NCBI RefSeq assembly: GCF_002368415.1
Contig: NZ_AP018292.1
Span: 248,001 to 312,000 of the forward strand
Direction of reading: 5' to 3'
DNA from: Calothrix sp. NIES-4105
GTDB taxonomy: Bacteria; Cyanobacteriota; Cyanobacteriia; Cyanobacteriales; Nostocaceae
Length of the DNA: 64,000 nt
Shown here: piece after piece, positions 2,586 to 60,756 of the stretch
Numbering within the stretch: position 1 is the stretch's first letter
Layout of the letters: the number at the start of each line of letters is the position of its first letter
Made by a program: the position numbers and the translations under genes
Notes under the pieces: generated by a model
The model's database searches: none
Seen by the model: the letters and a program-made list of their open reading frames with translations, nothing else
Told to the model about the DNA's origin: nothing

Positions 2586-2846
2586 GTGACGGGAAAACGG
2601 TGTAATTAGGATTAATTCTAATAATTCTGGGTCATGCCCAGACTCAACGTAGAACTGTTTCTTCTGCGTTAGGGGTAAAACCCTTTTAGTCCGCTTACAG
2701 GTCATGACTCAATGAAATTAGCCAGTTTCAAGCGTCAGTCAAGGATGAAAACGATTTTTCCCACTGTCGTTGAACCGAAAACTACCAACAAGCCTGTAAG
2801 CAGTGTTGAGGCAAACGTTACCTAGTAATAGAGACTGGTCACAACC
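2586..2846 (+). ncRNA. IscB-associated omegaRNA, copy 1
   Basis: The non-coding stretch between the element's left end (GTGACGGGAAAAC) and the iscB start is conserved almost base for base in all three cassettes. Shared blocks include AATTCTAATAATTC, GGGGTAAAACCCTTTTAGTC, CGCTTACAGGTCA and GATTTTTCCCACT. It contains short stems such as GGGGTAAAACCC. This is where IscB guide RNAs are encoded in IS200/IS605-related elements. By that model the guide is the roughly 16 bases just outside the element (2570-2585, CCAGTTGCGTTAAGGC). Confidence 0.8.
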
Positions 2847-4169
2847 ATGACTACCAATTTAATTTTTGTACTTGATAGTGATAAAAAACCATTAACAATG
2901 TGTACTCCCGGACTAGCAAGAAAACTCTTGGATAGTCAAAAAGCAGCAATGTTTAAATGGTATCCTGCAACAATTATTCTCAAAAAATCGGTTGTGGAAT
3001 TACCATTACCTTATTTGGAATTACGTATTGACCCTGGTTCGAGATTTACTGGCATTGCTCTTGTAGAAATTGAAACAGAAACAATTGTTTGGGCAATGGA
3101 ATTAGAACATCGAGGATTATCCATTTCTGAAACTTTAACTTCAAGGTCAAATATTCGGAAAGGGCGACGAAGCCGAAATACCAGATACAGGAAAGAGCGA
3201 CCAAACCATAAAAAATCTTCTGGTTGGTTGCCACCAAGTCTTCAACACCGAGTTGATACAACTATGACATGGGTAAGACGTATTATTAAACTGGCGCCAA
3301 TAAAAAGTATTGCATTTGAACGTGTCAAATTTGACATGCAGAAAATAGAAAACCCCTCTATTGAAGGTATTGAATATCAACAAGGTGCTTTACAGGGTTA
3401 TACTTTACGAGAAGCACTACTGGACCACTGGGGTCGTAAATGTGCTTACTGTAATGCTATTGATGTACCTCTAGAAATAGAACATATTCAACCAAAATCA
3501 AAGGGTGGTTCAGATAGATTTAATAATCTAACACTATCTTGCCATCAATGTAATCAAAATAAAAGTAATCAAACAATAGATGAGTTTTTGAAGGATGACC
3601 CGGCAAGATTAAACAATATCAAAAAGCATCAGAAACAAAGTCTTCGCGACGCTGCGGCTGTTAATTCAACGCGGAATAAATTATTTGATTCATTGAAAAC
3701 TTTTAACATACCTATATATAGTGGTTCAGGTGCTGAAACCAAGATGATGCGTATTAAATCAAATTTGCCCAAAGCCCATTTTATTGACGCAGGATGTGTA
3801 AATGCATCATATAAGGTAACATTGAAGACTATTCAGCCATTACGGGTAAAATGCAATGGACATGGGAATCGCCAATTTATGACGATGGATAAACATGGTT
3901 TTCCACGCAAAGATTATGCACCAAAATGTGTAAGGAAGGACTGGAAAGCTGGTGACATAATCAAAGTCAAGAAAAAAGGTGGTAATTTTGTATTGGGGCG
4001 TGTAAAGAAAGCGGCAAAAACATTGGCATTTATTCCATTCGGGGGTAAAGAAACAAGCTTTAGTCCCAAAAATACTAAACCTATCCATCGGTCTGATGGG
4101 TATCGATATTCTTTCACTACTATTGACACCGAAGGGCGTAAACGTAAACGCAGTTTTCCCGCAGGGTAG
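2847..4169 (+). CDS. iscB: IscB RNA-guided nuclease (440 aa, intact)
   Basis: IscB is the ancestor-type relative of Cas9: an RNA-guided DNA nuclease using the omegaRNA encoded just upstream. Visible parts are the N-terminal PLMP domain (1-50, KPLTMCTPGLARKLL), RuvC-I with D62 (RIDPGSRFTGIAL), an arginine-rich bridge helix (about 100-120), RuvC-II with E158 (SIAFERVKFD), an HNH domain with zinc cysteines C199/C202 and C232/C235 around H213 (EIEHIQPKSKGGSDRFNN), and RuvC-III with H311 and D314 (HFIDAGCVN). All catalytic residues are present. The C-terminus runs into the element's right-end repeats (RKRKRSFPAG). It is very similar to the copies at 24076 and 59334. Confidence 0.93.
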   Translation: MTTNLIFVLDSDKKPLTMCTPGLARKLLDSQKAAMFKWYPATIILKKSVVELPLPYLELRIDPGSRFTGIALVEIETETIVWAMELEHRGLSISETLTSRSNIRKGRRSRNTRYRKERPNHKKSSGWLPPSLQHRVDTTMTWVRRIIKLAPIKSIAFERVKFDMQKIENPSIEGIEYQQGALQGYTLREALLDHWGRKCAYCNAIDVPLEIEHIQPKSKGGSDRFNNLTLSCHQCNQNKSNQTIDEFLKDDPARLNNIKKHQKQSLRDAAAVNSTRNKLFDSLKTFNIPIYSGSGAETKMMRIKSNLPKAHFIDAGCVNASYKVTLKTIQPLRVKCNGHGNRQFMTMDKHGFPRKDYAPKCVRKDWKAGDIIKVKKKGGNFVLGRVKKAAKTLAFIPFGGKETSFSPKNTKPIHRSDGYRYSFTTIDTEGRKRKRSFPAG

Positions 4170-4309
4170 TTTTCCCGTAGGGTAGTTTGTCCGTTATCCG
4201 AAGGATATCCCGAAGGGTAGGACGAGTTACTCCAAAAAATCGCTACCTAATCATACGGGAGCGAAAAAAGCAGGTGGGCACCTCCCCATGTGTAAATGTA
4301 ATGAAATAC

Positions 4310-4600
4310 CTATATATCTATTTTAGATAAAAGAATTTCAACCTTTTCAAAGCGTGCTTCAAATGAATTTATCTTTTGATTTGCATTTTCAAGTTCAGAG
4401 CGCAAAAACTCGATTTCTTGCTCCAGCGAATCTATTTTCTGTTCAACCGACTCTTTCGGTAAATTTAAAAATTGTGCAATTGCTTCTCTAATCACCTGGG
4501 TGCGAGCTTTTCGCTCTTTGTCTGCATACGCATCTAAAGCGGACAGCATATCTTCGTAAAGCCGGATAGAAATTCCTTTATCTTTTGCTTCTTTTGACAT
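4310..4600 (-). CDS. CopG-type ribbon-helix-helix protein with coiled coil (96 aa)
   Basis: The N-terminal half matches an RHH fold: strand GISIRLYED, helix MLSALDAYADKERK, helix ARTQVIREAIAQFL. The C-terminal half is a clear coiled coil (heptads from EQKIDSLEQEIEFLRSELENAN to the end). It diverges from the replication gene at 4915 and ends next to the IscB cassette. It lacks the conserved -1 frame extension seen in the other two RHH genes. Expected role is repression of its own or the rep promoter, which is an inference from position. Confidence 0.75.
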   Translation of the reverse strand: MSKEAKDKGISIRLYEDMLSALDAYADKERKARTQVIREAIAQFLNLPKESVEQKIDSLEQEIEFLRSELENANQKINSFEARFEKVEILLSKIDI

Positions 4601-4704
4601 ATTATATGGAAGTGAGATATTGCTGTAATATTATTGGGTTACAAATATAGAGGTATACATCAATAGCATTACAGCGTATTTACAACAAATTTCTGCCCTA
4701 AAAG

Positions 4705-4779
4705 CAGAAATCCCCAGTTGCTGACAACAACCAGGGTTCCTGGGTAGCAGCTTTGCTGACAACAAAGCGAACAGCTACC
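4705..4779 (+). ncRNA. Structured leader upstream of the replication gene (repeat copy B)
   Basis: This sequence, repeated at 2498-2571, can fold as CCAGG-GTT-CCTGG followed by GGTAGC/GCTACC enclosing CTTTG/CAAAG. A further stem, TTTCTGC/GCAGAAA, lies directly upstream (4691-4710). The position 140-210 bases before the rep start suggests a leader or counter-transcript copy-control element. This is inference from structure and place only. Confidence 0.4.
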
Positions 4780-4914
4780 AACCGTCAGGTGGTTTAACCC
4801 GCCTAACTTCATCAATTTAAATACGATTACTATGAATTCTACCGTAGTACACTCCCAAAATACAAGAAGTACAACTGTTAGCCACTTAACACAACAAGAA
4901 GGAGGCGCCGCATA

Positions 4915-7896
4915 ATGCTAGCCGTCTCCCTCGAAAATCCGATTAATCAGGCTTTTTCAGTTAATTCTTACATCAGCGAAGCTCACTTTCAGGAGTGGGT
5001 AGAAAGTGGCGTTGACCCAGAAATAATCAAGCTTAATGTAAAGTCCCTTGTAGGGGATGAGGTTTACCAATATTTGATCCCCGACCCCGGCGCCGTGACA
5101 AAGCGCGTCCACCCAGACGCTCAGTGGAGAAGTATCCGCGCGCGTTATGGTCACTTGGAAAATGGTGGTTGGTGGGTTGATGGCGCCGACCCACTAAATG
5201 GTTATACCCTAAACCAGTGGGGAAGTTTCAAACCGGATACTCCACGCAACAAACATAACGGGTTCGCTGCCGTTGAGAATAAGTTCATTAAATATGAACA
5301 TCCGTTCGGTGTGACGATGCGCGCGATTTTCCTCAACGTCCCCTTACATATTTGGGAGAAAATTAGTGAACGTTATGAGATACCACTACCACTACGGGCT
5401 AATTTTATATCTATATATTCGGATTCAGTGGACGAGTATGTTCCGTCCATTAGTTTTTGGGAATGGGTTTACAAAAATAATATCCCCGTCACGATTGTAG
5501 AGGGAGCTAAAAAAGCAGGCGCCCTTTTAACTGCGGGATACGTTGCTATCGCGTTACCTGGAATATTCGCAGGTTATAGAAAATCTAGAATTCTAGAGAA
5601 CGGAGCAATTAGTGGACGCGCGCTCATACCTGATTTACAACACTTTTCCACACCTAGGCGGGAAATAAATATTTGTTTCGACTACGAAGACCGACCTGCT
5701 CAGATCAAAAGTATGGAGGCGGCCATTAACGGGCTATACTTCCTACTTTTGGAGAAAGGCTGCGATACTCGGATTACTTGCCTGCCTGGTAAAGAGAAAG
5801 GAGTGGACGATTTTATAGTGGCTCATGGAGTTGGCGCCTATGAAAAAATCCACGCTGCACTAACTTATGACCAGTGGGTAGCCTGGGGTTTGTCCAGACT
5901 TACAGGTGTTTCTGTATGCATCAACCAAGAATTTTTGGGCGCCATGCAGCTTCCAGTTGGAGAGAAGTTAGTTGCTATCAAATCTCCAAAGGGCACAGGA
6001 AAAACAGAATTGTTAATAAGCATAGTAGCTCTACGAATCAGCTTGGGACTTCCAACTATACTCATCACCCATAGAATCCAGTTGGGACAATCAATATGTG
6101 GACGTATTGGACTGGATTACGTTACAGAGATGGGCGATGGTGCCAGAACTTATTTTGGTTTTGGGCTATGTGTTGATAGCCTGCACCCAGAAAGTCAGGC
6201 ACAATTTAACGCGGAAAATTGGAAGGATGCCCTTGTGATAGTGGACGAGTGTGAACAAGTGTTCTGGCACACTTTAACCGCGTCCACTGAAATCAAGAAA
6301 CATCGTACAGAAGTAATCGACCAATTAGGCACCCTCTTTAAGAACGCGTTGACTTCAAAAGATGGTGGTGTGATTTTGCTGGACGCTGATTTAAGCAACT
6401 TGTCCATTGATTTTGTTTTGGGGCTTGCTGAGATTGACATAAAACCTTGGGTGGTACTTAACGAATGGAAACCAGTTAATGGGCGCTCTTGTTTTTCCTA
6501 TGAGAAGTCAACTCAAATGTTGGCTGTTTTAGAGGACGAAATCCACTCTGGTAAAAAAGTATTCGTTATTACTCAATCCCAGAAGGCGAAGTCCAAGTTC
6601 GGCACGATTAATTTAGAGGCAAGATGGCGCCAGTTATTCCCCAATTTAAGAATCTTGCGTATTGACTCGGATTCTGTACGTGAACCTGGTCATCCTGCAT
6701 TAGGATGCATATCAAAACTCAACCAAATCCTTACACAGTACGACATCGTGATATGTTCGCCCACAATTGAAACAGGCGTAAGTATCGATATTAAAGGACA
6801 TTTTTCAAGTGTTTGGGCATTCTTTCAAGGAGTTAGTCCTGTAAATTCTGCTTGCCAAGCAGTTGCAAGATTGCGTGAACTTGTTCCACTACACATCTAC
6901 GCTGCGTCACGTGGTCTAAGTTTTGCTGGTAATCAATCCACCAGCTATAAAGCTTTAATTTCCGGTCAGAACAAGGTTTTCAAATCAACTCTCAGCTTGA
7001 TTGGTTTTGATGGAAATAACTACACCATCAACGGCACAGCTTTAACAATCTGGGGAAAAATGGGCGCCCGTGTTAATGCTGGCATGAAAGACTACAACAC
7101 TTCAATATTGGCTGCTCTTTCTTCAGAAGGGCATACAGTAATTGAGGCGCCAGAAGAAAATCTCCCTTCACAGTCTACTGAGAAGCAAATTGCTAGTGAA
7201 CTCAAAGCTCGGAAGGAGAACAATTACATTGATTACTGTAACGAAGTAGCTTCCCAAGATATCAGTGAAATGACCATTTCTGAGTATGAAGCGCTACTCA
7301 TAAAGAAGGCTAAGACTCAACAAGAACGTTACATAGAAAAGAAATATGAGTTGTCACAACGTTATTCAGTGGACGTTAATGCTGATTTGGTCGCTGCTGA
7401 TGATGATGGGTTTTATCCTGCAATAAGATTGCATTACTATCTAACGGTCGGGCGCCCATATCTACTGGAACGTGACAAGAAAGTTATAGAGAAAATGCTC
7501 TCTGAGGCTTCAAATCGGTTGTTCATACCCGATTTTAATCGCAGTACATGGTCTGCTAGTGTTGCAACGTTAGAAGTCTTAGGTATTGGAGCAATACTTG
7601 CTCAAAGTGACCGCACGTTCCGTGGAAATGACGAAGATATGCAAGTTCTGTTGTCCAAAGCGATACAGTACCGCAACCAGATTAAGGATTTATTAGGGGT
7701 TCAAATATCTAAAAACGCTACGGCTATACAGGTTTTGAGGCAAATTCTCAAAAAACTTGGCTTAAAACTTCTAGTCGGTGGACGTGACGGCGCCGGACAT
7801 AGACAAAGATTTTACACAATTAAAAACCCTAATGATGGGAGAGAGGAAATATTCTCCAAGTGGCTAGCCAAGCACGAGGCAAGCAACACTAATTAG
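4915..7896 (+). CDS. Plasmid replication protein, CyRepA1 family (993 aa)
   Basis: The large size, a DUF3854/TOPRIM-like segment (about 180-310: VTIVEGAKKAGALLTAGYVA, ALPG, INICFDYEDRP) and a helicase-like ATPase segment identify the cyanobacterial CyRepA1 replication family. ATPase motifs are Walker A at about 356-366 (SPKGTGKTELL), Walker B at about 440 (ALVIVDECEQ), a motif near 612 (CSPTIETGVSID) and an arginine-finger-like QAVARLRE near 649. The start at 4915 has a strong AAGGAGG site. The likely task is origin recognition and unwinding for plasmid replication. About eleven GGCGCC sites lie in the gene, so it has long shared the window's sequence habit. Confidence 0.88.
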   Translation: MLAVSLENPINQAFSVNSYISEAHFQEWVESGVDPEIIKLNVKSLVGDEVYQYLIPDPGAVTKRVHPDAQWRSIRARYGHLENGGWWVDGADPLNGYTLNQWGSFKPDTPRNKHNGFAAVENKFIKYEHPFGVTMRAIFLNVPLHIWEKISERYEIPLPLRANFISIYSDSVDEYVPSISFWEWVYKNNIPVTIVEGAKKAGALLTAGYVAIALPGIFAGYRKSRILENGAISGRALIPDLQHFSTPRREINICFDYEDRPAQIKSMEAAINGLYFLLLEKGCDTRITCLPGKEKGVDDFIVAHGVGAYEKIHAALTYDQWVAWGLSRLTGVSVCINQEFLGAMQLPVGEKLVAIKSPKGTGKTELLISIVALRISLGLPTILITHRIQLGQSICGRIGLDYVTEMGDGARTYFGFGLCVDSLHPESQAQFNAENWKDALVIVDECEQVFWHTLTASTEIKKHRTEVIDQLGTLFKNALTSKDGGVILLDADLSNLSIDFVLGLAEIDIKPWVVLNEWKPVNGRSCFSYEKSTQMLAVLEDEIHSGKKVFVITQSQKAKSKFGTINLEARWRQLFPNLRILRIDSDSVREPGHPALGCISKLNQILTQYDIVICSPTIETGVSIDIKGHFSSVWAFFQGVSPVNSACQAVARLRELVPLHIYAASRGLSFAGNQSTSYKALISGQNKVFKSTLSLIGFDGNNYTINGTALTIWGKMGARVNAGMKDYNTSILAALSSEGHTVIEAPEENLPSQSTEKQIASELKARKENNYIDYCNEVASQDISEMTISEYEALLIKKAKTQQERYIEKKYELSQRYSVDVNADLVAADDDGFYPAIRLHYYLTVGRPYLLERDKKVIEKMLSEASNRLFIPDFNRSTWSASVATLEVLGIGAILAQSDRTFRGNDEDMQVLLSKAIQYRNQIKDLLGVQISKNATAIQVLRQILKKLGLKLLVGGRDGAGHRQRFYTIKNPNDGREEIFSKWLAKHEASNTN

Positions 7897-9953: not shown

Positions 9954-9955
9954 CT

Positions 9956-23088: not shown

Positions 23089-23580
23089 CTATTTATTATC
23101 CGTAGGACAAACAGCCCACGCGCTTGAAGAAGATGGTGTAATAGTTGGCGCCGCTGTCACAAGTTCAACATCACCGTTACTAGTTCTTACAAATCCTTGT
23201 GCTTCAATAATTGGAGGGTTGATTTCTGGTGGAGAGACATGAGCCGATACAGGGGAAGTTTCCCTGTTAATTGAGACGAGCGCGCGATAATTACTTGTAC
23301 CTGGTATCATATCCAAAGGACTAGGAGAAAGACTACCGCGTCCGGTAACAATAAATTCAGGTAAGGGCTTATCGTTAGGATACTTGGGGCAAATTTGAAA
23401 TAAAAACTTTGTGGGGTCAATTCGTGAAAAATCTGGTGAAAAATTTGACGAAGGGGCATTTTCTGAATATCTACTGACATTTTCTGGGCGCATCATTTGA
23501 GCATTAGCTTCTGTGGATGCCAGTACTGTGAAAGTGGTAAAAGTAAGCAGTAACTTCTCAAACGTAGTTCTAATAGGCAT
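23089..23580 (-). CDS. Exported protein like the C-terminal domain of TPS exoproteins (163 aa)
   Basis: I chose ATG 23580 because AGGTG precedes it. It begins a clean signal peptide (MPIRTTFEKLLLTFTTFTVL, cleavage after EANA). The mature part resembles the end of cyanobacterial filamentous-hemagglutinin-type proteins: a cysteine then FIVTGRGSLSPSP, later IIEAQGFVRTSNGDVELVTA, then PTITP and a final cysteine. Here the domain stands alone without the beta-helix. A second, disrupted copy lies next door on both sides of IscB cassette 2. Confidence 0.65.
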   Translation of the reverse strand: MPIRTTFEKLLLTFTTFTVLASTEANAQMMRPENVSRYSENAPSSNFSPDFSRIDPTKFLFQICPKYPNDKPLPEFIVTGRGSLSPSPLDMIPGTSNYRALVSINRETSPVSAHVSPPEINPPIIEAQGFVRTSNGDVELVTAAPTITPSSSSAWAVCPTDNK

Positions 23581-23736: not shown

Positions 23737-23814
23737 CTTTAGGGAAGTTTTATTATCAATTGTCACTAGTGTACGATAATTACTAGTACCTGGCATCATC
23801 TCAAGAGGGCTGAC
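23737..23814 (-). pseudogene. Fragment of a TPS-like C-terminal gene, cut by IscB cassette 2
   Basis: On the minus strand it reads SPLEMMPGTSNYRTLVTIDN, matching SPLDMIPGTSNYRALVSINR of the neighbouring gene. The other side of the insertion (25422-25470) reads DKPL then IITGRGSLSP. The cassette thus split a paralogue of 23089-23580. Confidence 0.7.
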
Positions 23815-24075
23815 GTAACGGGAAAACAGAATAATTAGGAGCAATTCTAATAATTCCGGGTTATGTCCAGACTTAGCGTAGAACTGTTCTTTCTACGTTA
23901 GGGGTAAAACCCTTTTAGTCCGCTTACAGGTCATGACTTAATGAGGTTAGCCAGTCTCAAGCGTCGGTCAAGGATGAAAGCGATTTTTCCCACTATCGTT
24001 GAACCGAAGACTATAAACAAGCCTGTAAGCTGTGTCGAGGCAAACGTTACCCAGTAATGGAGACTAGTCACAACC
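23815..24075 (+). ncRNA. IscB-associated omegaRNA, copy 2
   Basis: Same conserved blocks as copy 1, with few substitutions. The predicted guide lies at 23799-23814 (TCTCAAGAGGGCTGAC), inside the disrupted TPS-like gene. Confidence 0.8.
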
Positions 24076-25410
24076 ATGACTACCAATTTAATTTTCGTAC
24101 TTGATAGTGATAAAAAACCATTAACAATGTGTACTGCTGGATTAGCAAGAAAACTTTTAGATAGTCAAAAAGCAGCACTATTTAAATGGTTTCCAGCAAC
24201 AATCATTCTCAAAAAATCAGTAGCGGAATTACCATTGCCTTATTTAGAATTACGTATCGACCCTGGTTCAAAATTTACTGGCATTGCTCTTGTGGAAATT
24301 GCCACAGAAACAATTGTTTGGGCAATGGAATTGGAACATCGTGGACTATCAATTTCTGAAAATTTAACAGCAAGGTCAAACGTTCGACGCGCACGACGAA
24401 ATAGAAATACTAGATATCGAAAAGAGCGATCAAACCGCAAAAAACAACCTGGTTGGCTACCTCCAAGTCTTCAACACCGAGTGGATACAACTATGACTTG
24501 GATAAGACGTATTATTAAACTGGCACCAATAAAAAGTATTGCAGTTGAACGTGTCAAATTTGACATGCAAAAGATAGAAAACCCCGAAATAGAAGGCATT
24601 GAATATCAACAAGGCACTTTACACGGGTACACCTTAAGGGAAGCGCTGTTAGAACATTGGGGTAGAAAATGTGCTTACTGTGATGCTGTTAATGTGCCTC
24701 TAGAGATTGAACATATTCGACCAAAATCTAAGGGTGGGTCAGACAGATTCAATAATTTAACACTGTCTTGCCGCCAATGTAATCAAAATAAAAACAATCA
24801 ATCAATAGAGGAATTCTTGAAAAATGACCCAATTCGATTAGACCATATCAAAAAATACCAGAAAGAAAGTCTTCGAGATGCTGCTTGTGTCAATTCAACG
24901 CGAAATAAATTATTTGAGTCATTGACACATTTTGATATTCCTGTGCATACTGGTTCAGGCGCCCATACTAAAATGATGCGTATAAAATCAAATTTGCCCA
25001 AAACTCATTTTATTGATGCAGGATGTGTAAATGCTTCAAGGGAAGTAACATTAAAAACTCTTCAGCCACTACGAGTAAAATGTAATGGGCATGGGAATCG
25101 TCAATTTATGACAATGGATAAACATGGTTTCCCTCGTAAAGATTACGCACCAAAACACGTTAGGAAAGATTGGAAAGCTGGTGATATCATCAAAGTCAAG
25201 AAAAAAGACGGTACATCAGTATTAGGACGTGTAAAGAAAGCGGCGAAAACACTGGCATTTATTTCATTTGAAGGTAAAGAAACAAGCTTTAGTCCCAAAA
25301 ATACCAAACCTATTCATCGGTCTTGTGGGTATCGGTATTCTTTCACTACTATTGACTCTGTTAACGAAGTTTGTCCGAAGGACGAATTACTCAAAAAAAC
25401 TGCTACCTAA
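24076..25410 (+). CDS. iscB: IscB RNA-guided nuclease (444 aa, intact)
   Basis: Same domain order as the copy at 2847: PLMP domain, RuvC-I (RIDPGSKFTGIAL), bridge helix, RuvC-II (SIAVERVKFD), HNH with CAYC, EIEHIRPKSKGG and CRQC, and RuvC-III (HFIDAGCVNA). All expected catalytic residues are present. The C-terminus (VNEVCPKDELLKKTAT) differs from copy 1 because the right-end repeats are shorter. The site that is GGCGCC in copies 1 and 3 (LAPIKS codons) is GGCACC here. Confidence 0.93.
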   Translation: MTTNLIFVLDSDKKPLTMCTAGLARKLLDSQKAALFKWFPATIILKKSVAELPLPYLELRIDPGSKFTGIALVEIATETIVWAMELEHRGLSISENLTARSNVRRARRNRNTRYRKERSNRKKQPGWLPPSLQHRVDTTMTWIRRIIKLAPIKSIAVERVKFDMQKIENPEIEGIEYQQGTLHGYTLREALLEHWGRKCAYCDAVNVPLEIEHIRPKSKGGSDRFNNLTLSCRQCNQNKNNQSIEEFLKNDPIRLDHIKKYQKESLRDAACVNSTRNKLFESLTHFDIPVHTGSGAHTKMMRIKSNLPKTHFIDAGCVNASREVTLKTLQPLRVKCNGHGNRQFMTMDKHGFPRKDYAPKHVRKDWKAGDIIKVKKKDGTSVLGRVKKAAKTLAFISFEGKETSFSPKNTKPIHRSCGYRYSFTTIDSVNEVCPKDELLKKTAT

Positions 25411-25421
25411 TAATATGGGAG

Positions 25422-31396: not shown

Positions 31397-33349
31397 ATGA
31401 ATAATTTATTTGATTCCTCGTCGTCCCAAATCTCTCGGCGAGTTGCTTTGAAATTACTGAGTATTGGAGCTATTGGTACAACGCTAGGTTATTCTCGATT
31501 GAACAAACCTCAACCAATTGCGTTTCAGCAAGATATTTTAAATTTGCCGACTCATTTAAGTAATAAAAAGACGGTTGTTGTTGTAGGTGGTGGTTTAGCT
31601 GGATTAGCTTGTGCTTATGAGTTAAGTAAGCGAGGTTTTGCAGTAACGTTGCTAGAGCGCTCTCCAAACCTTGGTGGTAAAATAGCTAGTTGGAAAGTGC
31701 AGGTGGGTTCGGAGGAGTTTATGATGGAACATGGCTTCCACGGCTTTTTCCCCCAATATTATAATCTGAGAAGCTTGATTGACGAAATTAATATTAGTAA
31801 TAATTTTCGTTCTTTAGAACGCTACTCTGTGGTTTTTCGTAACAATGAGTACAACCCAGAAGTATTTCATCCGAATAATTCAGCTTTTCCTTGGAATATA
31901 GTTGATTTAGCAATAACCTCTTCAAATCGGTGGCGATGGGGAATTAATCTAACAAAATATAAACATTTACAAGTTTTTTATGCAATTACTAGTTTTCAAA
32001 TCCCTAGAACTTATCAAGATTTCGACAATCTAACGGTAGCTGAGTGGGTAAAAAAGGATTTTCCTCAAGGATTGTATGACCTTTATTTTCTTCCCTTTGC
32101 TAAATCTAGCCTGAATGCGCCAGATAAATTTAGTGTTGCAGAACTATTACATTTTTTTCACTTCTACTTCTTTGGAAATCCAGAAGGGTTAGCATTTGAT
32201 GGAACTAGGCAAGATATGGGAACGAGCTTAGTCCAGCCAATTACTCAAATGATTGAACGCAACGGTGGCAAAATTGTGAAAGAAGCAACAGTAAGCAATA
32301 TCAACTTTAAACAAGGAAATATTGCATCTTTAAGCTACCAGCAGGGGCAAACTCAAACGGCGGTGCCATTTTGGGTAAAGCATAACTCAGCAATTGATTC
32401 AGAAGATTTGGAATATTATGGTGCTGGCGATGCAATGTTTGCTGTATCACCTAATAGTGAATATGCTATCTCTATGAGTTGTACTCACCAAGGATGTACT
32501 GTTGAAAGACAAGAAAATGGAGCGTTCCATTGTCCTTGTCATGGAGCTATGTATGATGAACTTGGGCGAGTCATGAGTGGACCAATCAAACGCGATCTAC
32601 CTCGCTTCTTAGTCACAGAACGTAAGGAAGAAAATATTCAATTGGTGGCAGATATATCAACTTTATCAGTAACAGAGCAGACAGTCGAAGCCGATTATTA
32701 CGTTTTGGCTACTGATGTTCCGGGTGTTAAAAATCTTTTCGGGCTAATGACTGGTGAAGTAAATCAAGAGTTGAAAAATCAGGTTGATAAACTAACCGTT
32801 TCCGATCCATTTGCAGTTGCTCGGTTTTGGTTTGACCGCGATTTTGAATGGGAACATAGTAATTTCGCTTCTCTTTCTGGCTATAAACTGACCGATAGTA
32901 TTACCCTTTATCATCGCATTCAAGAACAATTTATTGAGTGGTCAAAGCGAACAGGCGGTAGTGTTATAGAACTACATGCATATTGTTACAAAGAGAAAGA
33001 ATTTCCTACTCAGAAGTCGTTATTGACTACCTTTGAGCAGGAATTGTATGAAATAGTGCCACAATTGCAAGAAGCTTCGATGCTACACCGAGAATTGGTT
33101 AATCAAAAAAACTTTTCTGGTTATCCACCTAATAGTTTCACTCATAGACCAGAAACAAGCACACCAGTTTCTAATCTGCTGTTTGCTGGTGACTGGGTAC
33201 GTATGCCTTTCCCCTGCGGTTTAATGGAGCGAGCAGTTAGCAGTGGAATACTTGCAGCAAACACTATTCTTTATCAAGAAAAGCTACAAAGGCGAACCCT
33301 TTTATCTGTTAATCCAGAGGGAATTTTCAATATTACGCCAATAGTTTGA
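31397..33349 (+). CDS. CruE/CrtU-like carotenoid desaturase/methyltransferase with Rieske domain (650 aa)
   Basis: An N-terminal FAD-binding motif ([20 protein letters not shown], about 60-79) and a phytoene-desaturase-like fold ([32 protein letters not shown] near the end) surround an inserted Rieske domain at about 360-395 (CTHQGC and [12 protein letters not shown], the CxH and CxxH cluster ligands). This combination fits the beta-carotene desaturase/methyltransferases CruE (synechoxanthin) and CrtU (isorenieratene), which make aromatic end rings. The N-terminus has a twin-arginine-like stretch ([15 protein letters not shown]). There are no GGCGCC sites in the gene. No other pathway genes are present apart from the next one. 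Confidence 0.75.
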
Positions 33350-33478
33350 AGCTGTTTTGCTAAAAGCTCAATTGCTTTACTAATACATTGCAATTTCAAC
33401 TAACGAAGAGTTATTCCTAGCTTCAATAATGTTTGATTTGATAAAGAGTAACCTCGATTACTGATAGTTTGTGTATCT

Positions 33479-34912
33479 ATGACTACAACAGAACAACTTG
33501 TTAAAAAATCATGGGCAGAGGCAATCAAGGAAACAGCAGTTGAATTTGGTTTGACTTCATTGCCGATTATTTCTGGAGCTATCCCATCAAAACTAAGAGG
33601 TTCTTTTTACTGTAATGGTTCGGCACGTTTAGAACGAGGTGGAGAAACAGTCAAGCATTGGTTTGATGGAGATGGAGCAGTTTTAAGAATTCATTTGAAT
33701 TCAGCAGGCGCCACTGGTATCTACCGCTATGTAAAAACTGCCGAGTACCTTGAGGAAGAACAATCTGGGAAATTGTCGTTTATGGGCTATGGTACTATGC
33801 CCTCTGGTTCAATCTGGAGACGTTTTTTTAAACCAATTAAAAATGTTGCCAATACTTCAGTTTTGGCATTACCAGACAAACTGCTGGCTCTTTGGGAAGG
33901 TGGGCATCCTTATGCCTTAGATTTGGAAACCCTTAACACAATCGGTCTTGATAATTTAGAATGGTTAACTAATAATCTTTCTTATTCGGCTCATCCAAAG
34001 CAAGACCCTTTAACCAAAGAAATTTATAACTTTGGATTGAGCTACGGTAAAAAAACTTTCTTAAACGTTTACCGATGCGATTTCAAAGGTAAAATAATAG
34101 CAAAAACAGCAATTCCTTTAGAAGGTGCGCCTCTAGTTCATGATTTTGTTGTGGCTGGTCAGTACTTAGTGTTTTTAATTCCTCCAATACGGCTGCAAAT
34201 TTTTCCGTTATTGATGAGGTTAAAAAGCCTTAGTGACAATTTATCTTGGCAACCAAAACGAGGAACGCAAATTTTGGTGGTAGACCGTGAAAACCTTAAT
34301 TTACTAAGTCGTGGAGTTACTGAGCCTTGGTATCAATGGCATTTTGGAAATGGTTATGTGGATTTGGATGGCTCTGTATTGTTTGATTTCGTTCAGTACT
34401 CAGATTTTAAAATTAACCAATACTTAAAAGAAGCAGCGACAGGTTATACTAAAACTCCTGCGAAAGGAACACTTCACCAAATTCGCCTTAACCCTAAAAC
34501 AAGTAAAGTTAAAGAAATTGCTTGTGTTTTTGACCGATGCTGTGATTTTCCATCTGTAAATCCGAATAAAATTGGACAACCTTGGCGCCATACTTATCTA
34601 TCAGTATTATCAAAAGAAGAAGATATTGGTCAAGAAATAATAGGCGGCACGTTTGCCTGCGTTGATTACAAAACAAATACATATAAGTTAGCCTCTTTGG
34701 GTGAAGGCAATTATGGCACTGGGCCAATTTATGCTCCAGACCCAAATAATGCAGACCAAGGTTGGATTTTAACAGTTGTTTACAATAGTAATAGCAACCA
34801 AAGCGAGTTTTGGATATTTGATGCACAGGACTTGAGTGCAGGAGCAATTTGCCGTCTTGCTTTACCGAAAGTAATACCAATTGCATTTCACAGTACTTGG
34901 AATGCAGCCTAG
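33479..34912 (+). CDS. Carotenoid cleavage oxygenase (477 aa)
   Basis: Carotenoid oxygenases use a non-heme iron held by four histidines to cleave carotenoids or apocarotenoids, for example to retinal. The four conserved His contexts are visible: SYSAHPKQD (near 171), PLVHDFVVAG (near 220), WYQWHFGNGY (near 288) and the terminal FHSTW (near 471). The N-terminal FYCNGSARLERGG and HWFDGDGAVLRI are also family marks. It follows the CruE-like gene by 129 bp on the same strand and probably works on related carotenoids. GGCGCC occurs twice, unlike in the two genes before it. Confidence 0.88.
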   Translation: MTTTEQLVKKSWAEAIKETAVEFGLTSLPIISGAIPSKLRGSFYCNGSARLERGGETVKHWFDGDGAVLRIHLNSAGATGIYRYVKTAEYLEEEQSGKLSFMGYGTMPSGSIWRRFFKPIKNVANTSVLALPDKLLALWEGGHPYALDLETLNTIGLDNLEWLTNNLSYSAHPKQDPLTKEIYNFGLSYGKKTFLNVYRCDFKGKIIAKTAIPLEGAPLVHDFVVAGQYLVFLIPPIRLQIFPLLMRLKSLSDNLSWQPKRGTQILVVDRENLNLLSRGVTEPWYQWHFGNGYVDLDGSVLFDFVQYSDFKINQYLKEAATGYTKTPAKGTLHQIRLNPKTSKVKEIACVFDRCCDFPSVNPNKIGQPWRHTYLSVLSKEEDIGQEIIGGTFACVDYKTNTYKLASLGEGNYGTGPIYAPDPNNADQGWILTVVYNSNSNQSEFWIFDAQDLSAGAICRLALPKVIPIAFHSTWNAA

Positions 34913-51017: not shown

Positions 51018-52982
51018 ATGCTGATAGGTTTAACACTGCGCGACCGCTATAAAATCATCTCACTTTTAGGACAAGGTCATTTTGGTGAAACCTATCTTGC
51101 TGAGGATTTGGGTGTTCCTATCAATCCCAAGCCTAAGCGTGTTGTCAAACGTCTAAAAACCCAAAATTTCATCGATGCACAATTAGATTGGGTAAAAAAT
51201 GCCTTTGAGCAGGAAGCAGCAACACTTTATAAGTTGAGCCAATTGCACCCGCAAATACCCAATTTATTAGAATATTTTCAAGTAAAGGAAGAATTTTATC
51301 TAGTTCAAGATTTTATTGATGGGGTAGATTTAACGAAAATCATCATCCCAGGAACAAAGCTAGCTGAACTTGAAGTTATCCAGCTTTTATGTGAGATTTT
51401 AGAAGTGTTGGTAGTTGTCCACCAACAGAATATTATTCACCGTGACATCAGCCCTAAAAACATCATGCGCCGTCAGGCTGATAATAAAATTGTGTTAATT
51501 GACTTTGGTACAGTTAAACAAATAATGCTCAAAACGAGCGTACAAACTAGTCTGACAATAGGAGTGGGAACACCTGGTTTTATGCCATTAGAGCAATTTA
51601 ACGGAAAACCTAAATTAGCAAGCGATATCTACGCTGTGGGGATGGTGGGAATACAAGCACTGACGGGAATACAACCCCATTTATTAGATGATGATGAAGA
51701 TGGAGAAGTGATTTGGCGCCCTAGGGTAAGTATTACTAATGATTTTGCCCAGGTGCTAGAGAAAATGGTAAGTCGTCGCGTTAGTCAGCGTTATCAAAAT
51801 GCCACAGAAGCTTTAGAAGCAATGCAGTTGTTAAATCAACAACTAAACAAACCTATTGCCCCCACAATTATTTTACCACCATCACCCTTAGCAAACAATA
51901 CTCAACCTTATAATAGTACACTATTAAATAAGACGAAAAGCGCTGAAATTTACAACAATGAAGGTATTAAAAAATTTAAGGCTGGAAATTATGTTCGCGC
52001 AATTGAAGATTACAACCAAGCTATTATAATTAATCCGAACTATGCAGTTGCTTATTTTAACCAAGGAAATGCTTACATTTTATTAGGAGATTATCAAGCT
52101 GCAATTCAAGATTTAAATCAAGCTATTAAAATTAATCCTAATGATACAAAATTTTATAATAGTCGAGGATTTGCTTACAATCGCTTAGGAAATTATCAAG
52201 CTGCAATTCAAGATTTAAACCAAGCTATTAAAATTAATCCTAACTACGCAGAGGCTTATGCTAACCGAGGATTTGCTTACAATAGCTTAGGAGATTGTCA
52301 AGTCGGAATTCAAGATTATAACCAAGTTATTAAAATTAATTCTAACCTTGAACATATTGAATATATTTATCTTAATCGAGGATTAGCTTACATTAAGTTA
52401 GGAGATTATCAATCTGCAATTCAAGATTACACTCAAGCTCTTAAAATTAATCATAACTTCGCAGATGCTTATACTAACCGAGGAGATGTTTACAGTAATT
52501 TAGGAGATTATCAAGCTGCAATTCAAGATTACACTCAAGCTCTTAAAATTAATCCTAACTATGTAGGTGCTTATAATAGCCGAGGAATAGCTCACTATAA
52601 TTTAGGAGATTATCAAACTGCAATTCAAGATTATAACCAAGCTCTTAAAATTAATCCTAACTATTCAAATGTTTATAACAACCGAGGATTAGCTCATTGT
52701 AATTTAGGAGGTTATCAAGCGGCAATTAAAGATTATAACCAAGCTCTTAAAATTAATCCTAACTATTCAGATGCTTATAACAACCGAGGAGTGGCTCACT
52801 ATTATTCAGGAGATTATCAAGTCGCAATGGAAGATTTCAGTCAAGCAGCAAATTTATATAAACAACAAGGGAAAGAAAGCGAGTACCAAGATTTGCTAAA
52901 CCGCATTAAAAAACTTAAACTTACATCCCGCACCCCAGGCGCCACACTAGGTTCTTACTTATCTAAATTTTTGCCTTGGTAA
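51018..52982 (+). CDS. Hanks-type Ser/Thr protein kinase with TPR repeats (654 aa)
   Basis: The kinase domain covers about 1-270: glycine loop (LLGQGHFGETYLAED), catalytic lysine (RVVKRLKT), catalytic loop (IIHRDISPKNIMRR, near 140-150), DFG (VLIDFGTVKQ, near 161) and an activation segment with GTPGFMPLEQF. All key residues are present. After a Pro-rich linker come about nine 34-residue TPRs (GDYQAAIQDYNQALKINPNY-like) to 640. The repeats are nearly identical in DNA, which shows recent expansion. Kinase-TPR fusions are common in filamentous cyanobacteria; targets unknown. A GTG nine bases upstream is an alternative start. Confidence 0.9.
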   Translation: MLIGLTLRDRYKIISLLGQGHFGETYLAEDLGVPINPKPKRVVKRLKTQNFIDAQLDWVKNAFEQEAATLYKLSQLHPQIPNLLEYFQVKEEFYLVQDFIDGVDLTKIIIPGTKLAELEVIQLLCEILEVLVVVHQQNIIHRDISPKNIMRRQADNKIVLIDFGTVKQIMLKTSVQTSLTIGVGTPGFMPLEQFNGKPKLASDIYAVGMVGIQALTGIQPHLLDDDEDGEVIWRPRVSITNDFAQVLEKMVSRRVSQRYQNATEALEAMQLLNQQLNKPIAPTIILPPSPLANNTQPYNSTLLNKTKSAEIYNNEGIKKFKAGNYVRAIEDYNQAIIINPNYAVAYFNQGNAYILLGDYQAAIQDLNQAIKINPNDTKFYNSRGFAYNRLGNYQAAIQDLNQAIKINPNYAEAYANRGFAYNSLGDCQVGIQDYNQVIKINSNLEHIEYIYLNRGLAYIKLGDYQSAIQDYTQALKINHNFADAYTNRGDVYSNLGDYQAAIQDYTQALKINPNYVGAYNSRGIAHYNLGDYQTAIQDYNQALKINPNYSNVYNNRGLAHCNLGGYQAAIKDYNQALKINPNYSDAYNNRGVAHYYSGDYQVAMEDFSQAANLYKQQGKESEYQDLLNRIKKLKLTSRTPGATLGSYLSKFLPW

Positions 52983-55914: not shown

Positions 55915-55995
55915 ATCAGTAAAGTTGTCAGATGACTATTAATGGTTACTTTTATAAGCTATAGAAAGTTCAATCAAGAAATTAATTGGTGTGAT

Positions 55996-56649
55996 ATGAA
56001 ATTTCAAAAAAGTTTTAAAACAGGTCTAATTTGCTCTTTAGGAATTGTTAGCACTATCGCTTCAAGTTTGGCGCCTGCTGCTGCGATACCTTACCAAGGA
56101 GACACTGTATATAAATCAACAGACAGAGGAATTCCTGTAGTTGTGTTTAGCGCTTCACCTGGTTCTCGGATACGGGTAAATTTAGGAAATTCTGCTTCTA
56201 CAACCGCGCGTGTAGCAGGCGCGTGTGGAGAACTACGCATCTCGGTGCCCGCTTCTGGTTCATTTGCAGGTCTGAAAGTAGATGGAACTGCTGTTGATGC
56301 AAGCACTCTGCCCACACAAACATTACCTTCTTGTGTAAACGGCGCCTTTGCTGAGTCCAGGACAGCTAACTTTAAAACACCCGCTGGACAAGTTGTGATA
56401 GTTGGGAAGACGGCGAATACTGCTGTATCTATTGAACTGCCACAACCAACCGTAGCGAATGTAAGTGTAAATGCATGTGGTTTCGGAGTGCTGAGACAAA
56501 GGACTGGACAAACATTACCAGCGACATTCAGTACAGATTCGACTTCTTACACAATGACAGCGTTGAAAAATGCTTCGGCGCCACCTCTTTGTAGAACAGC
56601 AGGAGGACAAGCTGCTGCTTACATTCCCTCTAGTTGGACTACTCCCTAA
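55996..56649 (+). CDS. Secreted CG-module protein A (217 aa)
   Basis: ATG 55996 is preferred to the upstream ATG (55942), since a good signal peptide starts there (MKFQKSFKTGLICSLGIVST, cleavage after PAAA). The mature protein begins IPYQGDTVYKSTDRGIPVVV and contains two modules, each with a central x-CG-x (VAGACGELRISV and VNACGFGVLRQR) and a later single cysteine. The same layout is seen in the next two genes. Disulfide-stabilised beta domains at the cell surface are likely. Function unknown. Confidence 0.7.
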   Translation: MKFQKSFKTGLICSLGIVSTIASSLAPAAAIPYQGDTVYKSTDRGIPVVVFSASPGSRIRVNLGNSASTTARVAGACGELRISVPASGSFAGLKVDGTAVDASTLPTQTLPSCVNGAFAESRTANFKTPAGQVVIVGKTANTAVSIELPQPTVANVSVNACGFGVLRQRTGQTLPATFSTDSTSYTMTALKNASAPPLCRTAGGQAAAYIPSSWTTP

Positions 56650-56727
56650 TTCTTCTGGTTTAAGGTTTGTACTCGTTTCGGCGACCAGCTTATCTTATAA
56701 ATTGGTCGCTATTTTTCATGTAATCTT

Positions 56728-57933
56728 ATGAAACAAAAAATTTTATTATCTTTAACACTTTTAATATCGGCACCTTTATTATTGGCGCCAGCATCCGCGC
56801 AAACTGCCCATCGTACAGAACGTGAATTTTTCATTAGAGGACTAACACCAAATAAACCTTATCAAATAGATTTAGGTGGCTCTCCACTTATCCGCGCGGC
56901 AAATTCTAATAAGTGTGGAGTATTACAATTCCGTCCAGGTGCCAATTTTAAGAACGGTGACAAAGTAGAGATTAGAGATGAAAAATCGAATGCTACATAT
57001 GGATTTACATACAGCAGCAGTATACCTTCGGGTGAGGCGCCTAAATGTGAGGGACAGGTAATAACAGAAAGGAAGGTTTGGGTAACACCTAATAACTTTG
57101 TGGCTATTTCAGGACTGGCGCCAAGCTCGCCTCAAACGATTAGATTATTATCAAGTAACAGAACTCGCAATGTAAGGGCTAACACCTGCGGGTTTATCTC
57201 CATTAATTTGGATAACAGCAATTTACCAACAGCAATATTAACAGGGGGGAAAGCATTTCCTACTAATGTTCAAGTATCGCGCGGTGTTGCTTGCCGTCGC
57301 GGACAACTTTATGTAGCCTATCCTCCACCTGTTGAAACAGCGGGGATAGATGTAAATACATGGCAATCTCAACAGGCGCCTATTAATTTCTCCCCTGGTG
57401 TAAGTCTTCTAAGTATGGGAGTTGTTACTACTGATGGCGGTACAGGGTCTGGTACTGGTTCTGGCACAGGGTCTGGTACAGGAGGAGGAACAGCGGTAGT
57501 AGTTGAACCACCTCCACCTCCGCCGCCCCCACAATGTCCTGAAGCATACAGCGGTACTTATCCTAACTGCGTGGCGCCTCCTCCACCACCACCTCCACCA
57601 CCACCACCCCCACCACCACAATGTCCCGTAGGATACAGCGGTACTTATCCTAACTGCGTGGCGCCTCCTCCTCCACAACCAACTATGTGCAAGGTTGGTT
57701 CACAGTTGGTAGTTTTCTCGCTTGAGAAAAACACTACATATGATGTTGATGTAGACGATGAAATATTTGATAGCTTTGCGACTTCCGACAGTACGGGGAA
57801 AGCTACATTTCCTAATTTTAGATGGACTGCTACATATGAGGGAAGCCCTGCTAACTTCGTTATTTATAAACGCTCCGACCCAGATAGAACAATAATCTCA
57901 GCCAATGTTTCAATTGTCCAACCTTGTCCGTAA
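56728..57933 (+). CDS. Secreted CG-module protein B with polyproline linkers (401 aa)
   Basis: A signal peptide (1-25) precedes two CG modules (NKCGVLQFRPGANF, ANTCGFISINLDNS) and a Gly/Ser/Thr linker (GTGSGTGSGTGSGTGG). Two copies of a short cysteine motif (CPxxYSGTYPNCVAPPPP) are separated by long proline runs. A last cysteine-containing beta domain ends IVQPCP. The proline and Gly-Thr repeats suggest spanning of the cell wall or sheath. The gene overlaps the next by 29 bases and probably forms an operon with A and C. Confidence 0.7.
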   Translation: MKQKILLSLTLLISAPLLLAPASAQTAHRTEREFFIRGLTPNKPYQIDLGGSPLIRAANSNKCGVLQFRPGANFKNGDKVEIRDEKSNATYGFTYSSSIPSGEAPKCEGQVITERKVWVTPNNFVAISGLAPSSPQTIRLLSSNRTRNVRANTCGFISINLDNSNLPTAILTGGKAFPTNVQVSRGVACRRGQLYVAYPPPVETAGIDVNTWQSQQAPINFSPGVSLLSMGVVTTDGGTGSGTGSGTGSGTGGGTAVVVEPPPPPPPPQCPEAYSGTYPNCVAPPPPPPPPPPPPPPQCPVGYSGTYPNCVAPPPPQPTMCKVGSQLVVFSLEKNTTYDVDVDDEIFDSFATSDSTGKATFPNFRWTATYEGSPANFVIYKRSDPDRTIISANVSIVQPCP

Positions 57934-58558
57934 ATCATTACTAGCGTTTATTTTAGTCTCTGGATTAATAAATAATTCAGAGGCTTTTGCTGTTCCTTAT
58001 CAAGGCAACAATGTGTATAAAAGCTTTGATAATCAAGGGCACCAAATAATTATACTATCCGGCAATAGTAATACTCAGTGGCTTATAAGATATTTAAGTC
58101 AGGATAAACCAACTACCTTTTATGTAAGCGCTTGTGGTCTAATTAGAATTAATAACCGGAATAATAGAATACGGCGCCTGTCGATTAATAACACTGAAAT
58201 TAATATTTCTACACTACCTGTACAAGCTGTTCCTAAATGTGATAGAGAAATCAGTCCTTTCGCTGTTAATAATACTTCTAGCTTTGTTACACACGATGGG
58301 GTAATTTATATAGCTAATGCTGGTTCTTCGTTTATGCCCGTTCAAGGAGAAGTACAGCATTTAATAGAAAGAAGGATAACCCCAAACTTATGCGGGTTTG
58401 CTGTATTTAGGGCGCCGTTCAATAGAAAAGATTTTCCTAAATCTTTTGAGTGGAATGGAAATACTTATCAAGTAGATAGTTTATTAACCGCACCGCAGGC
58501 GCCGAGATGTATTAGACGTAATAGTTCTATAACTACTCAAATTCCACATGATTATTAA
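57905..58558 (+). CDS. Secreted CG-module protein C (217 aa)
   Basis: Starts within the end of the previous gene. Signal peptide about 1-29 (SLLAFILVSGLINNSEAFA). The mature part starts VPYQGNNVYKSFDNQGHQII, homologous to protein A, with CG modules (VSACGLIRINNRNN, PNLCGFAVFRAPFN) and paired late cysteines (VPKCDRE, PRCIRR). Two broken 3' copies of this gene lie at 60757-60962 and 63783-63946. It marks a plasmid family that is being duplicated and lost. Confidence 0.7.
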   Translation: MFQLSNLVRKSLLAFILVSGLINNSEAFAVPYQGNNVYKSFDNQGHQIIILSGNSNTQWLIRYLSQDKPTTFYVSACGLIRINNRNNRIRRLSINNTEINISTLPVQAVPKCDREISPFAVNNTSSFVTHDGVIYIANAGSSFMPVQGEVQHLIERRITPNLCGFAVFRAPFNRKDFPKSFEWNGNTYQVDSLLTAPQAPRCIRRNSSITTQIPHDY

Positions 58559-58620
58559 TTTAAGTCTTGAAATGATGATTTTATTTAAAATAAAGCACAT
58601 TCAATTTAATTAGGAGAAAG

Positions 58621-58851
58621 CTAAGAATTAGTTCGGCGCCATTCCAACAAATCCTCTACTTTACACTCCAGCACTTCGCATAATTTCTCAAGCGTATCAA
58701 ATGAAGCGCTTCTAATTAGGTTATACTCCCACCGCTGCATCGTATTTAACGATACTCCAACTGCGCGCGCTAACCCCTCTTGACTAAATCCGCGCGCTTC
58801 TCTAATTTCCTTTAACTTTACATATATACCCACAATCGGCATCTGCTCCAA
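58621..58851 (-). CDS. XRE-family regulator (76 aa)
   Basis: A compact Cro/CI HTH: VKLKEIREARGFSQEGLARA, VGVSLNTMQRWEYNLIRSAS, then FDTLEKLCEVLECKVEDLLE. It is almost only the DNA-binding domain. Upstream lies an inverted repeat ATATAGTA...TACTATAT that may be its operator. Could be an antitoxin-like or autoregulatory protein; no toxin gene is seen beside it. Confidence 0.85.
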   Translation of the reverse strand: MEQMPIVGIYVKLKEIREARGFSQEGLARAVGVSLNTMQRWEYNLIRSASFDTLEKLCEVLECKVEDLLEWRRTNS

Positions 58852-58882
58852 TCAACTCTATCATTTCATAATACCCCACCTT

Positions 58883-58914
58883 ATATAGTATTATATTTTA
58901 GATTTGTACTATAT
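58883..58914 (-). promoter_or_regulatory. Inverted repeat, operator candidate
   Basis: ATATAGTA (58883-58890) and TACTATAT (58907-58914), 16 bases apart, directly upstream of the XRE gene. Confidence 0.5.
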
Positions 58915-59010
58915 CCATCAGTAAATCTAATTATCTCATTAGCTAATACCCCTTAAAATGATGTAATATAAAACTATGCAAGGAATTCAAAAACTCTTAG
59001 GTGATTAGAT

Positions 59011-59074
59011 ATGGCAAGAAAGACAACACCAAGTTTTGTAACAGAATTTCCTCTTCATTTATGCCAGTTGGGGC
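59011..59074 (+). pseudogene. Truncated N-terminus of a TnpB-like protein
   Basis: ATG 59011 encodes MARKTTPSFVTEFPL, the typical beginning of cyanobacterial TnpB/IS1341-type proteins (MARKxxPSFVxExPL). It is cut off after about 20 codons by IscB cassette 3. Part of the same sequence, in another frame, also reads SSFMPV like the secreted protein C, so this junction is composite. Confidence 0.4.
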
Positions 59075-59333
59075 GTAACGGGAAAACGGGATAATTAGGA
59101 TTAATTCTAATAATTCCGGGTTATGTCCAGACTCAACGTAGAACTGTTCATTTTACGTTAGGGGTAAAACCCTTTTAGTCCGCTTACAGGTCAGGACTCA
59201 ATGAGGTTAGCCAGCCTCAAGCGTCGGTCAAGGATGAAAACGATTTTTCCCACTGTCGTTGAACCGAAGACTACTGACAAGCCTGTGAGCTGTGTCGAGG
59301 CACACTTTACCCATATGGAGACTAGTCACAACC
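59075..59333 (+). ncRNA. IscB-associated omegaRNA, copy 3
   Basis: Conserved with copies 1 and 2. The predicted guide is 59059-59074 (TTATGCCAGTTGGGGC). Confidence 0.78.
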
Positions 59334-60637
59334 ATGACTACCAATTTAATTTTCGTACTTGATAGTGATAAAAAACCATTAACAATGTGTACTGCTGGAC
59401 TCGCAAGGAAACTCTTGGATAGTCAAAAAGCAGCACTATTTAAATGGTATCCTGCAACAATTATTCTGAAAAAATCGGTCGCGGAATTACCATTACCTTA
59501 TTTGGAATTACGCATCGATCCTGGTTCCAAATTTACTGGCATTGCTCTTGTAGAAATTGAAACAGAAACAATTGTTTGGGCAATGGAATTAGAACATCGA
59601 GGATTATCCATTTCTGAAAGTTTAACTTCGAGGTCTAATGTTCGGAAAGGACGACGAAGCCGAAATACCAGATACAGGAAAGAGCGATTTAATCGTAAAA
59701 ACCTAAAGGTTGGCTGCCCCCTAGTCTTCAACACCGAGTAGATACGACTATGACTTGGGTAAGACGTATTATTAAACTGGCGCCGATAAAGAGTATTGCA
59801 GTCGAACGTGTTAAATTTGACATGCAGAAGCTAGAGAACCCCGAAATAGAAGGGATTGAATATCAACAAGGTACTTTACAAGGCTACACTTTACGGGAAG
59901 CACTGTTAGAGCATTGGGGTAGGAAATGTGCTTACTGTGATGCTGTTAATGTGCCTTTAGAGATTGAGCATATCCGACCAAAGTCTAAAGGTGGCTCAGA
60001 CAGGTTCAACAATTTAACTTTATCTTGCCACCAATGTAATCAAACTAAAAATAATCAATCAATTGAGGAATTTTTGAAACATGACTCTGTTCGTTTAGAG
60101 AATATAAGAAAGCATCAGAAAAAAAGCCTTCGGAATGCTGCTGCTGTCAATTCAACTAGAAATAAATTATTTGAGTCATTAACACGTTTCGATATACCTG
60201 TATATAGTGGTTCAGGCGCACAAACTAAGATGATGCGATTTAAATCAAACCTACCGAAAGCTCATTTTATTGATGCAGGATGTGTAAATGCGTTACAGAA
60301 AGTAACTTTAAAAACTCTCCAGCCACTACGAGTAAAATGCAGTGGGCATGGAAATCGTCAATTTGTGACCACGGATAAACATGGTTTCCCACGTAAGGGT
60401 TATGCCCCAAAACATGTAAGGAAGGACTGGAAAGCAGGTGACATAATCAAAGTTCAGAGAAAAGATGGTAGCTTTGTATTAGGACGTGTAAAGAAAGCGG
60501 CAAAAGCATTAGCATTTATTACATTTGGAGGTAAAGAAACAAGCTTTAGTCCCAAAAATACGAAACCTATTCATCGTTCTGATGGATACCGATATTCTTT
60601 TACTACTATTGACCCCGTAAACGTAAACGTAAACTAA
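59334..60637 (+). pseudogene. iscB: IscB nuclease, one-base frameshift
   Basis: ATG 59334 begins MTTNLIFVLDSDKKPLTMCT as in the other copies. At the A5 run near 59698 one A is missing compared with the family (copy 2 has AAAAAAC); the frame stops at 59741 and the rest continues in the next frame (MTWVRRIIKLAPIKSIAVER to NVNVN). RuvC-I, bridge helix, HNH (CAYC, EIEHIRPKSK, CHQC) and RuvC-III (HFIDAGCVNA) are all present if the base is restored. It is either a recent loss, a homopolymer sequencing error, or a shift tolerated by slippage. Confidence 0.85.
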
Positions 60638-60756
60638 GTTTTTCCGAAGGGTAGTTTGTCCGTTATCCGTAAACGCTTATGTTTTCCCGCAGGGTAGGAT
60701 ATCGGCTTATGATAGGACGAATTACTCCAAAAAATCGCCACCTAATGATACGGGAG

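Follow-up and report, generated by a model that had tools for sequence, protein, structure and literature searches.

How does a nuclease element without a transposase gene recognize its place in the DNA, and how is it kept there? The question is raised by three copies of an IscB-omegaRNA element in the 64,000-nucleotide stretch analyzed here (the window), which is bases 248001–312000 of contig C3 of Calothrix sp. NIES-4105. C3 has 365,907 bases in a genome of 12.04 Mb and is taken as a plasmid because the window carries the plasmid replication gene cyrepA1 (4915–7896, plus strand; NF042913 426 bits, cut-off 200). We read the copies as IscB-omegaRNA insertion elements lacking a transposase gene, with a guide supplied by the flanking DNA, a target-adjacent motif (TAM) of the form GRGR and retention by cutting and repair, and assign this reading a probability of about 0.8. 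The features observed are the anatomy and ends of the elements, their uninterrupted (empty) sites, a TAM candidate, a covarying RNA and purifying selection on the protein. In the proposed mechanism the element would insert immediately upstream of a purine run (GRGR) with no target duplication, a transcript from the left flank would carry the last ∼16 flank bases as a guide, IscB with this guide RNA would cut sites in which GRGR follows the guide sequence, whether restored or uninterrupted, and repair from an element-bearing copy would retain or spread the element.

The copies are direct repeats of 1.61–1.68 kb on the plus strand, each consisting of a 262–264-nt leader followed by an IscB gene. 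A first-pass annotation of the window had described three such cassettes; all are present, with copies 1 and 2 intact and copy 3 frameshifted. Copy 1 (2583–4256; ends placed by copy alignment, other family members and empty sites) contains an omegaRNA scaffold (2583–2846; leader alignment, RNAalifold and pair counts) and an intact iscB gene of 440 residues (2847–4169; PF14239, HNH, NF040563). Its predicted 16-nt guide is flank DNA directly 5' of the first base of the element (2567–2582), and its right flank begins with GGGAG (4257–4261), a TAM candidate. Copy 2 (23812–25416; copy alignment and uninterrupted-site comparison) has its scaffold at 23812–24075, defined as in copy 1, and an intact gene of 444 residues at 24076–25410, the stop codon of which ends 6 nt short of the right end; the predicted guide (23796–23811) and the TAM candidate GGGAG (25417–25421) adjoin it. 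Copy 3 (59072–60751; placed in the same way as copy 2) has a scaffold at 59072–59333 (leader alignment, RNAalifold) and a gene broken by a 1-nt deletion near 59696 into a 5' part (59334–59741) and a 3' part (59750–60637), with its predicted guide at 59056–59071 and GGGAG, again a TAM candidate, at 60752–60756. A fourth copy lies outside the window on the minus strand (∼C3:353460–355104, first base 355104) and has lost its right end. Against the copy 1 leader, those of copies 2 and 3 both show 89% identity, and the copies share sequence from GRCGTRAYGGGAAAAC through CTAATNATAY. By eye, copies 1, 3 and 4 have extra repeat units like TTTTCCCGTAGGGTAG downstream of iscB, before the right end (4130–4225, 60630–60700 and ∼C3:353500–353560), which are not present in the relatives L086 and L087.

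A genome contig scan located these close relatives in Calothrix sp. PCC 7716 (L086 and L088) and Dulcicalothrix desertica PCC 7102 (L087); L-, G- and C-numbers denote loci, genomes and contigs, respectively, and G195 is D. desertica. The family thus counts seven members in three genomes, each with different flanks. A whole-genome search with the leader returned the four IscB copies and five chance-level matches of 17–24 nt, and the next-best IscBs in this genome, four in number, show 45–51% identity.

Uninterrupted versions were found for four insertions (L086, L087 and copies 2 and 3) and for half of the copy 1 site, and none shows a target duplication. For L086, G195, G196, G197 and G199 have the uninterrupted site (93–95% identity), as does the NIES-4105 chromosome (84%); for L087 it is found in PCC 7716 (86%) and on the NIES-4105 chromosome (80%). 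For copies 2 and 3 the uninterrupted sites are paralogous repeats within the window (both plus strand): TCATATCCAAAGGACT followed by AGGAG (23253–23386) for copy 2, and CGTTTATGCCCGTTCA followed by AGGAG (58325–58474, with ∼20 nt aligning left of the joint) for copy 3. With the help of these sites, alignment of the copies, a check that the first-pass annotation had proposed, placed the ends to within 1–2 nt. The cassette positions given there were broadly right, but the left ends lay 3 nt late and the right ends included the 5-nt target sequence GGGAG; likewise, the identity of the guides with the 5' flanks holds, but their coordinates were 3 nt off. The right flanks at intact ends, a count that omits the fourth copy and L088 (no right end), are GGGAG three times, GAGGA, GGGAA and GGGAC, and all six fit GRGR. 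The chance of GRGR at one site is 0.0092 at the local base composition, a value that serves as a guide only since the element ends were placed partly by conservation. At the same position the uninterrupted sites read AGGAG (copies 2 and 3), GGGGA (L086), GGAAA (L087) and GGGGC (copy 1). The GGGAC among the six right flanks belongs to a 220-bp deletion derivative in D. desertica (L162:3438–3657) that keeps both ends. GRGR on the 3' side of the element is therefore the likely TAM, as judged from these flanks. Most IscB TAMs come from library assays; in this family, empty sites that occur naturally in the window and in sister strains yield a predicted TAM, element ends within 1–2 nt and ready targets, including one that matches at 16 of 16 positions.

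The structured omegaRNA that had been proposed upstream of iscB is supported by covariation. The consensus fold of the seven leaders (RNAalifold) contains 77 pairs, with 95.5% of cells paired. Changes on both sides occur in 11 of the 77 pairs, against a mean of 3.4 in shuffled alignments, and none of 500 shuffles reached 11, a result that, with only seven related sequences, does not amount to a probability. When the pair partners were slid by 1–3 columns, only 0–3 both-side changes remained. Helix 1 begins at base 1 of the element, and A at position 2 occurs only in copy 2, where its partner is U. A scaffold that starts at base 1, with the guide ending just before it, is favored because helix 1 starts there. 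As a direct test of the leaders, the Rfam HEARO model (RF02033) gave no match, and the assessment relied instead on covariation and on HEARO-bearing relatives as a comparison. No HEARO match was found in the window at the gathering threshold, in the copy 1 region at E ≤ 1 or in the four copies (L001, L002, L003 and L009) at E ≤ 1; a genome-wide search gave five matches, two over the cut-off and none at the four family copies. The same model matches 15 of 20 related loci. The 3' end of the copy 2 leader, CGAGGCAAACGTTACCCAGTAATGGAG, resembles the HEARO RNA end of L005, CGAAGCTAACATTACCCAGAAATGGAG. The window RNA is thus like HEARO RNA in adjoining the IscB gene on its 5' side, in its 3' end and in a first stem at the first base, and differs in being missed by the Rfam model, which, as this family shows, overlooks some omegaRNAs.

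Copies 1 and 2 match RRXRR and HNH (Pfam), as does copy 3 when its two parts are combined, and copies 1 and 2 score 398 and 408 bits, respectively, with the NCBIfam model guided_IscB (NF040563; cut-off 175). LRIDPGS, ERVKFD, EHI.PKSKGGS...NLTLSC..CN and HFIDAG, which we take to be RuvC-I, RuvC-II, HNH and RuvC-III, respectively, are all complete in copies 1 and 2. For these two, alignment with TbaIscB and OgeuIscB bears out the earlier statement that the RuvC and HNH residues are complete. The ratio of nonsynonymous to synonymous divergence (dN/dS) is 0.11–0.17 in all six pairs of the four intact genes, with a synonymous divergence (dS) of 0.49–1.27. By this measure the IscB copies are old, yet kept functional by purifying selection. 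The copy 1 and copy 2 proteins with their own RNA are predicted to be RNA-guided DNA nucleases. The arrangement of RRXRR, RuvC and HNH and the structured RNA directly upstream are as in the IscB/OMEGA systems OgeuIscB and TbaIscB; the differences are an omegaRNA unseen by Rfam HEARO and the TAM candidate GRGR.

In known IscBs the guide comes from the 5' flank, with a length of 16 nt, and the TAM lies on the 3' side. The copy 1 guide matches at 16 of 16 positions in D. desertica (G195:C45:33699), followed by GGGGC. The L087 guide matches 15 of 16 positions in PCC 7716, followed by GGAAAC, and the L086 guide 13 of 16 in G195, with mismatches on the TAM-distal side only and followed by GGGGAA, and 13 of 16 in G196, with one mismatch 5 nt from the TAM; a fair ungapped count is precluded in G199 and G197 by a 1-nt gap close to the site. 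The earlier inference that each nuclease would cut an uninterrupted copy of its own insertion site is partly supported: the copy 1 guide matches such a site at full length, but those of copies 2 and 3 match at only 12 of 16 positions each in the best uninterrupted versions found, their paralogues in the window. Cutting of these paralogues is doubtful, because each has four mismatches, some beside the TAM.

None of the open reading frames of the elements is a TnpA gene, as the first-pass annotation had noted. A search with 11 putative TnpA proteins of the same genome likewise gave no TnpA match in 53 loci, which are mostly IscB loci and overlap in part. The genome has 23 Y1 matches, and the sole one on C3 carries six stops. 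A TnpA element with matching ends would start with GTATNATTAGGTA and end with CCCGTYACGYC (reverse orientation). Movement is probably performed by a Y1 transposase acting in trans. The elements resemble IS200/IS605 in inserting without target duplication and in having a short fixed sequence at one end, and differ in having no Y1 transposase gene; a hairpin shared by the ends was not seen, the single-strand folds differing among the five copies folded.

Several points weigh against the reading as IscB-omegaRNA elements with flank-derived guides and a GRGR TAM. Transcription, guide length, cleavage and repair are carried over from established knowledge of IscB and TnpB. To the small number of leaders compared is added that one of the five pair measures, further pair types, does not rise above the shuffles (92 of 500 reach its value), and Rfam HEARO fails to match the window leaders, for copy 2 even at E ≤ 10. 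The left boundary is ambiguous by 1–2 nt, as G or GG is common to element and target. Past GGG the right flank of copy 1 does not continue the cyrepA1 leader found at its left edge, so that only half of the copy 1 empty site is confirmed. The L086 and L087 guides fit poorly to the counterparts of their sites on the NIES-4105 chromosome. Finally, Y1 element ends were unlike the IscB ends in five pairs of similar copies compared by eye (10 of the 18 loci fetched, out of 23), and a hairpin shared by all element ends was not seen.

Other readings share part of this evidence. In a spread like that of homing endonucleases, the uninterrupted allele would be cut and the element copied in by homologous recombination, so that orthologous sites would be invaded. 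The guides with a purine TAM fit the sister-species sites of copy 1, L087 and L086 as described above, and gene drive of TnpB elements in plasmids is on record (PMC11870625). The likeness is that an insertion-site guide would favor element-bearing plasmids; the difference is that there the case concerns TnpB and comes from experiment, while here it would concern IscB and is deduced. No site is common to any two of the seven members, and the sister sites found are still empty. We consider homing unlikely as the main route, and because no two members occupy the same site, new sites would have been reached in some other way. That the copies are old, inactive remnants is suggested by the frameshifts in copy 3 and L087, the truncation of L088, the missing right end of the fourth copy and the synonymous divergence between the intact copies; decay alone, however, would not preserve four intact genes with such low dN/dS and a covarying RNA, and we regard this explanation as improbable.

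The third alternative turns on the left flank of copy 1, which contains an extra copy of the cyrepA1 leader (2492–2572, plus strand). This leader copy is truncated or rearranged, because the right flank is not its continuation; from 47 nt past GGG the right flank resembles a region ∼1.7 kb upstream of the PCC 7716 cyrepA1. A second leader copy (4699–4780, plus strand) lies directly upstream of cyrepA1 and is diverged at the copy 1 guide site: its best site has six mismatches and no purine TAM. In D. desertica (L133) the leader stands just before a cyrepA1 89% identical to that of the window, and 120 nt separate the end of the perfectly matching guide site from the start codon downstream. The arrangement recurs in G196 (cyrepA1 87% identical) and, with a more distant cyrepA1, in PCC 7716. 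In its own genome the copy 1 guide followed by GG (at most two mismatches) fits only its own flank and one two-mismatch site in an unrelated place on C1; ignoring GG, C3 has a further two-mismatch site at 296293, followed by ACGTT. Copy 1 may thus attack related plasmids, because the D. desertica leader matches perfectly and its own leader is diverged, which would let its own plasmid escape from RNA-guided plasmid competition. The perfect natural target is a single one, however, the leaders of G196 and PCC 7716 matching at 11 of 16 positions. The leader is present in four of the seven genus members, and elsewhere in the order only as 19–33-nt matches (E 0.001–0.008) in seven of 387 other genomes. 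A guide against relatives is moreover a by-product of any insertion into conserved sequence, and copies 2 and 3 show no comparable aim. We think competition between plasmids a poor candidate for what the guide does, and find it equally doubtful that copy 1 acts between plasmids as an RNA-guided weapon or gene drive, destroying or converting incoming plasmids of the same replication type. Were it true that copy 1 cuts cyrepA1 leaders, plasmid incompatibility would involve an IscB element.

The leader itself is ∼82–95 nt long, foldable, conserved and also present in sister genomes, and the 121-nt leader region has no match in PLSDB. It is possibly a copy-control RNA. An antisense RNA locus that lies upstream of cyrepA1 in Synechocystis is linked to plasmid copy number (PMC9978351). 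An NsiR1 match in the copy 1 flank was rejected (19.8 bits, cut-off 39). A different, HEARO-type IscB lies at L133:4360–5913, ∼2 kb upstream of the D. desertica cyrepA1 and in the opposite orientation.

All four elements on C3 have a flank paralogue within 3 kb, compared with 95 of 1000 random points (chance of four of four ∼8 × 10^-5), a pattern spotted after the fact. The diverged duplicates are at C3 positions 250492/252699, 271253/271742, 306346/308753 and 353226/355124. In a control without matches overlapping the elements, the flank repeat is seen for two of four elements versus 9.6% of random points, and for L086 and L087 the 150-nt flanks have no nearby repeat in the respective genomes. 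We take the flank repeats to reflect insertion into DNA that is duplicated and dispensable, and propose no mechanism. A repeat family surrounds copy 3 (58409, 60816 and 63784), and more members occur at other places on the plasmid and in sister genomes.

Within the genus, IscB was found at E ≤ 10^-80 in five of seven genomes and the window family in three of seven. In the order, 73 of 195 genomes (drawn from a larger group, with 30 loci taken) contain IscB at E ≤ 10^-100, and identities outside the genus are 44–53% among the matches listed. Plasmid collections gave no near relative (in one search five records, with query coverage of no more than 21%; in another 46 records, all below 60% identity), and a viral collection gave no relative. 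Searches of the open literature on HEARO and IscB in cyanobacteria and on IscB in Nostoc gave no description of the family; against this literature background, the absent TnpA and the Rfam miss are not surprising. By sequence comparison the family appears to be a relative of HEARO elements, and in the genomes covered here its lineage was encountered in a single Calothrix/Dulcicalothrix genus. The elements are a narrow IscB lineage with a TAM candidate of its own; the IscB kind is already known.

Elsewhere in the window, 31397–34912 encodes a protein with HpnE/desaturase-like and Rieske-like parts, and its gene is adjoined on the plasmid by a carotenoid cleavage dioxygenase-like gene (all matches below the curated cut-offs). 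Seven repeat copies, spaced mostly by 102 nt, occupy 51874–52896 within a reading frame of 657 residues.

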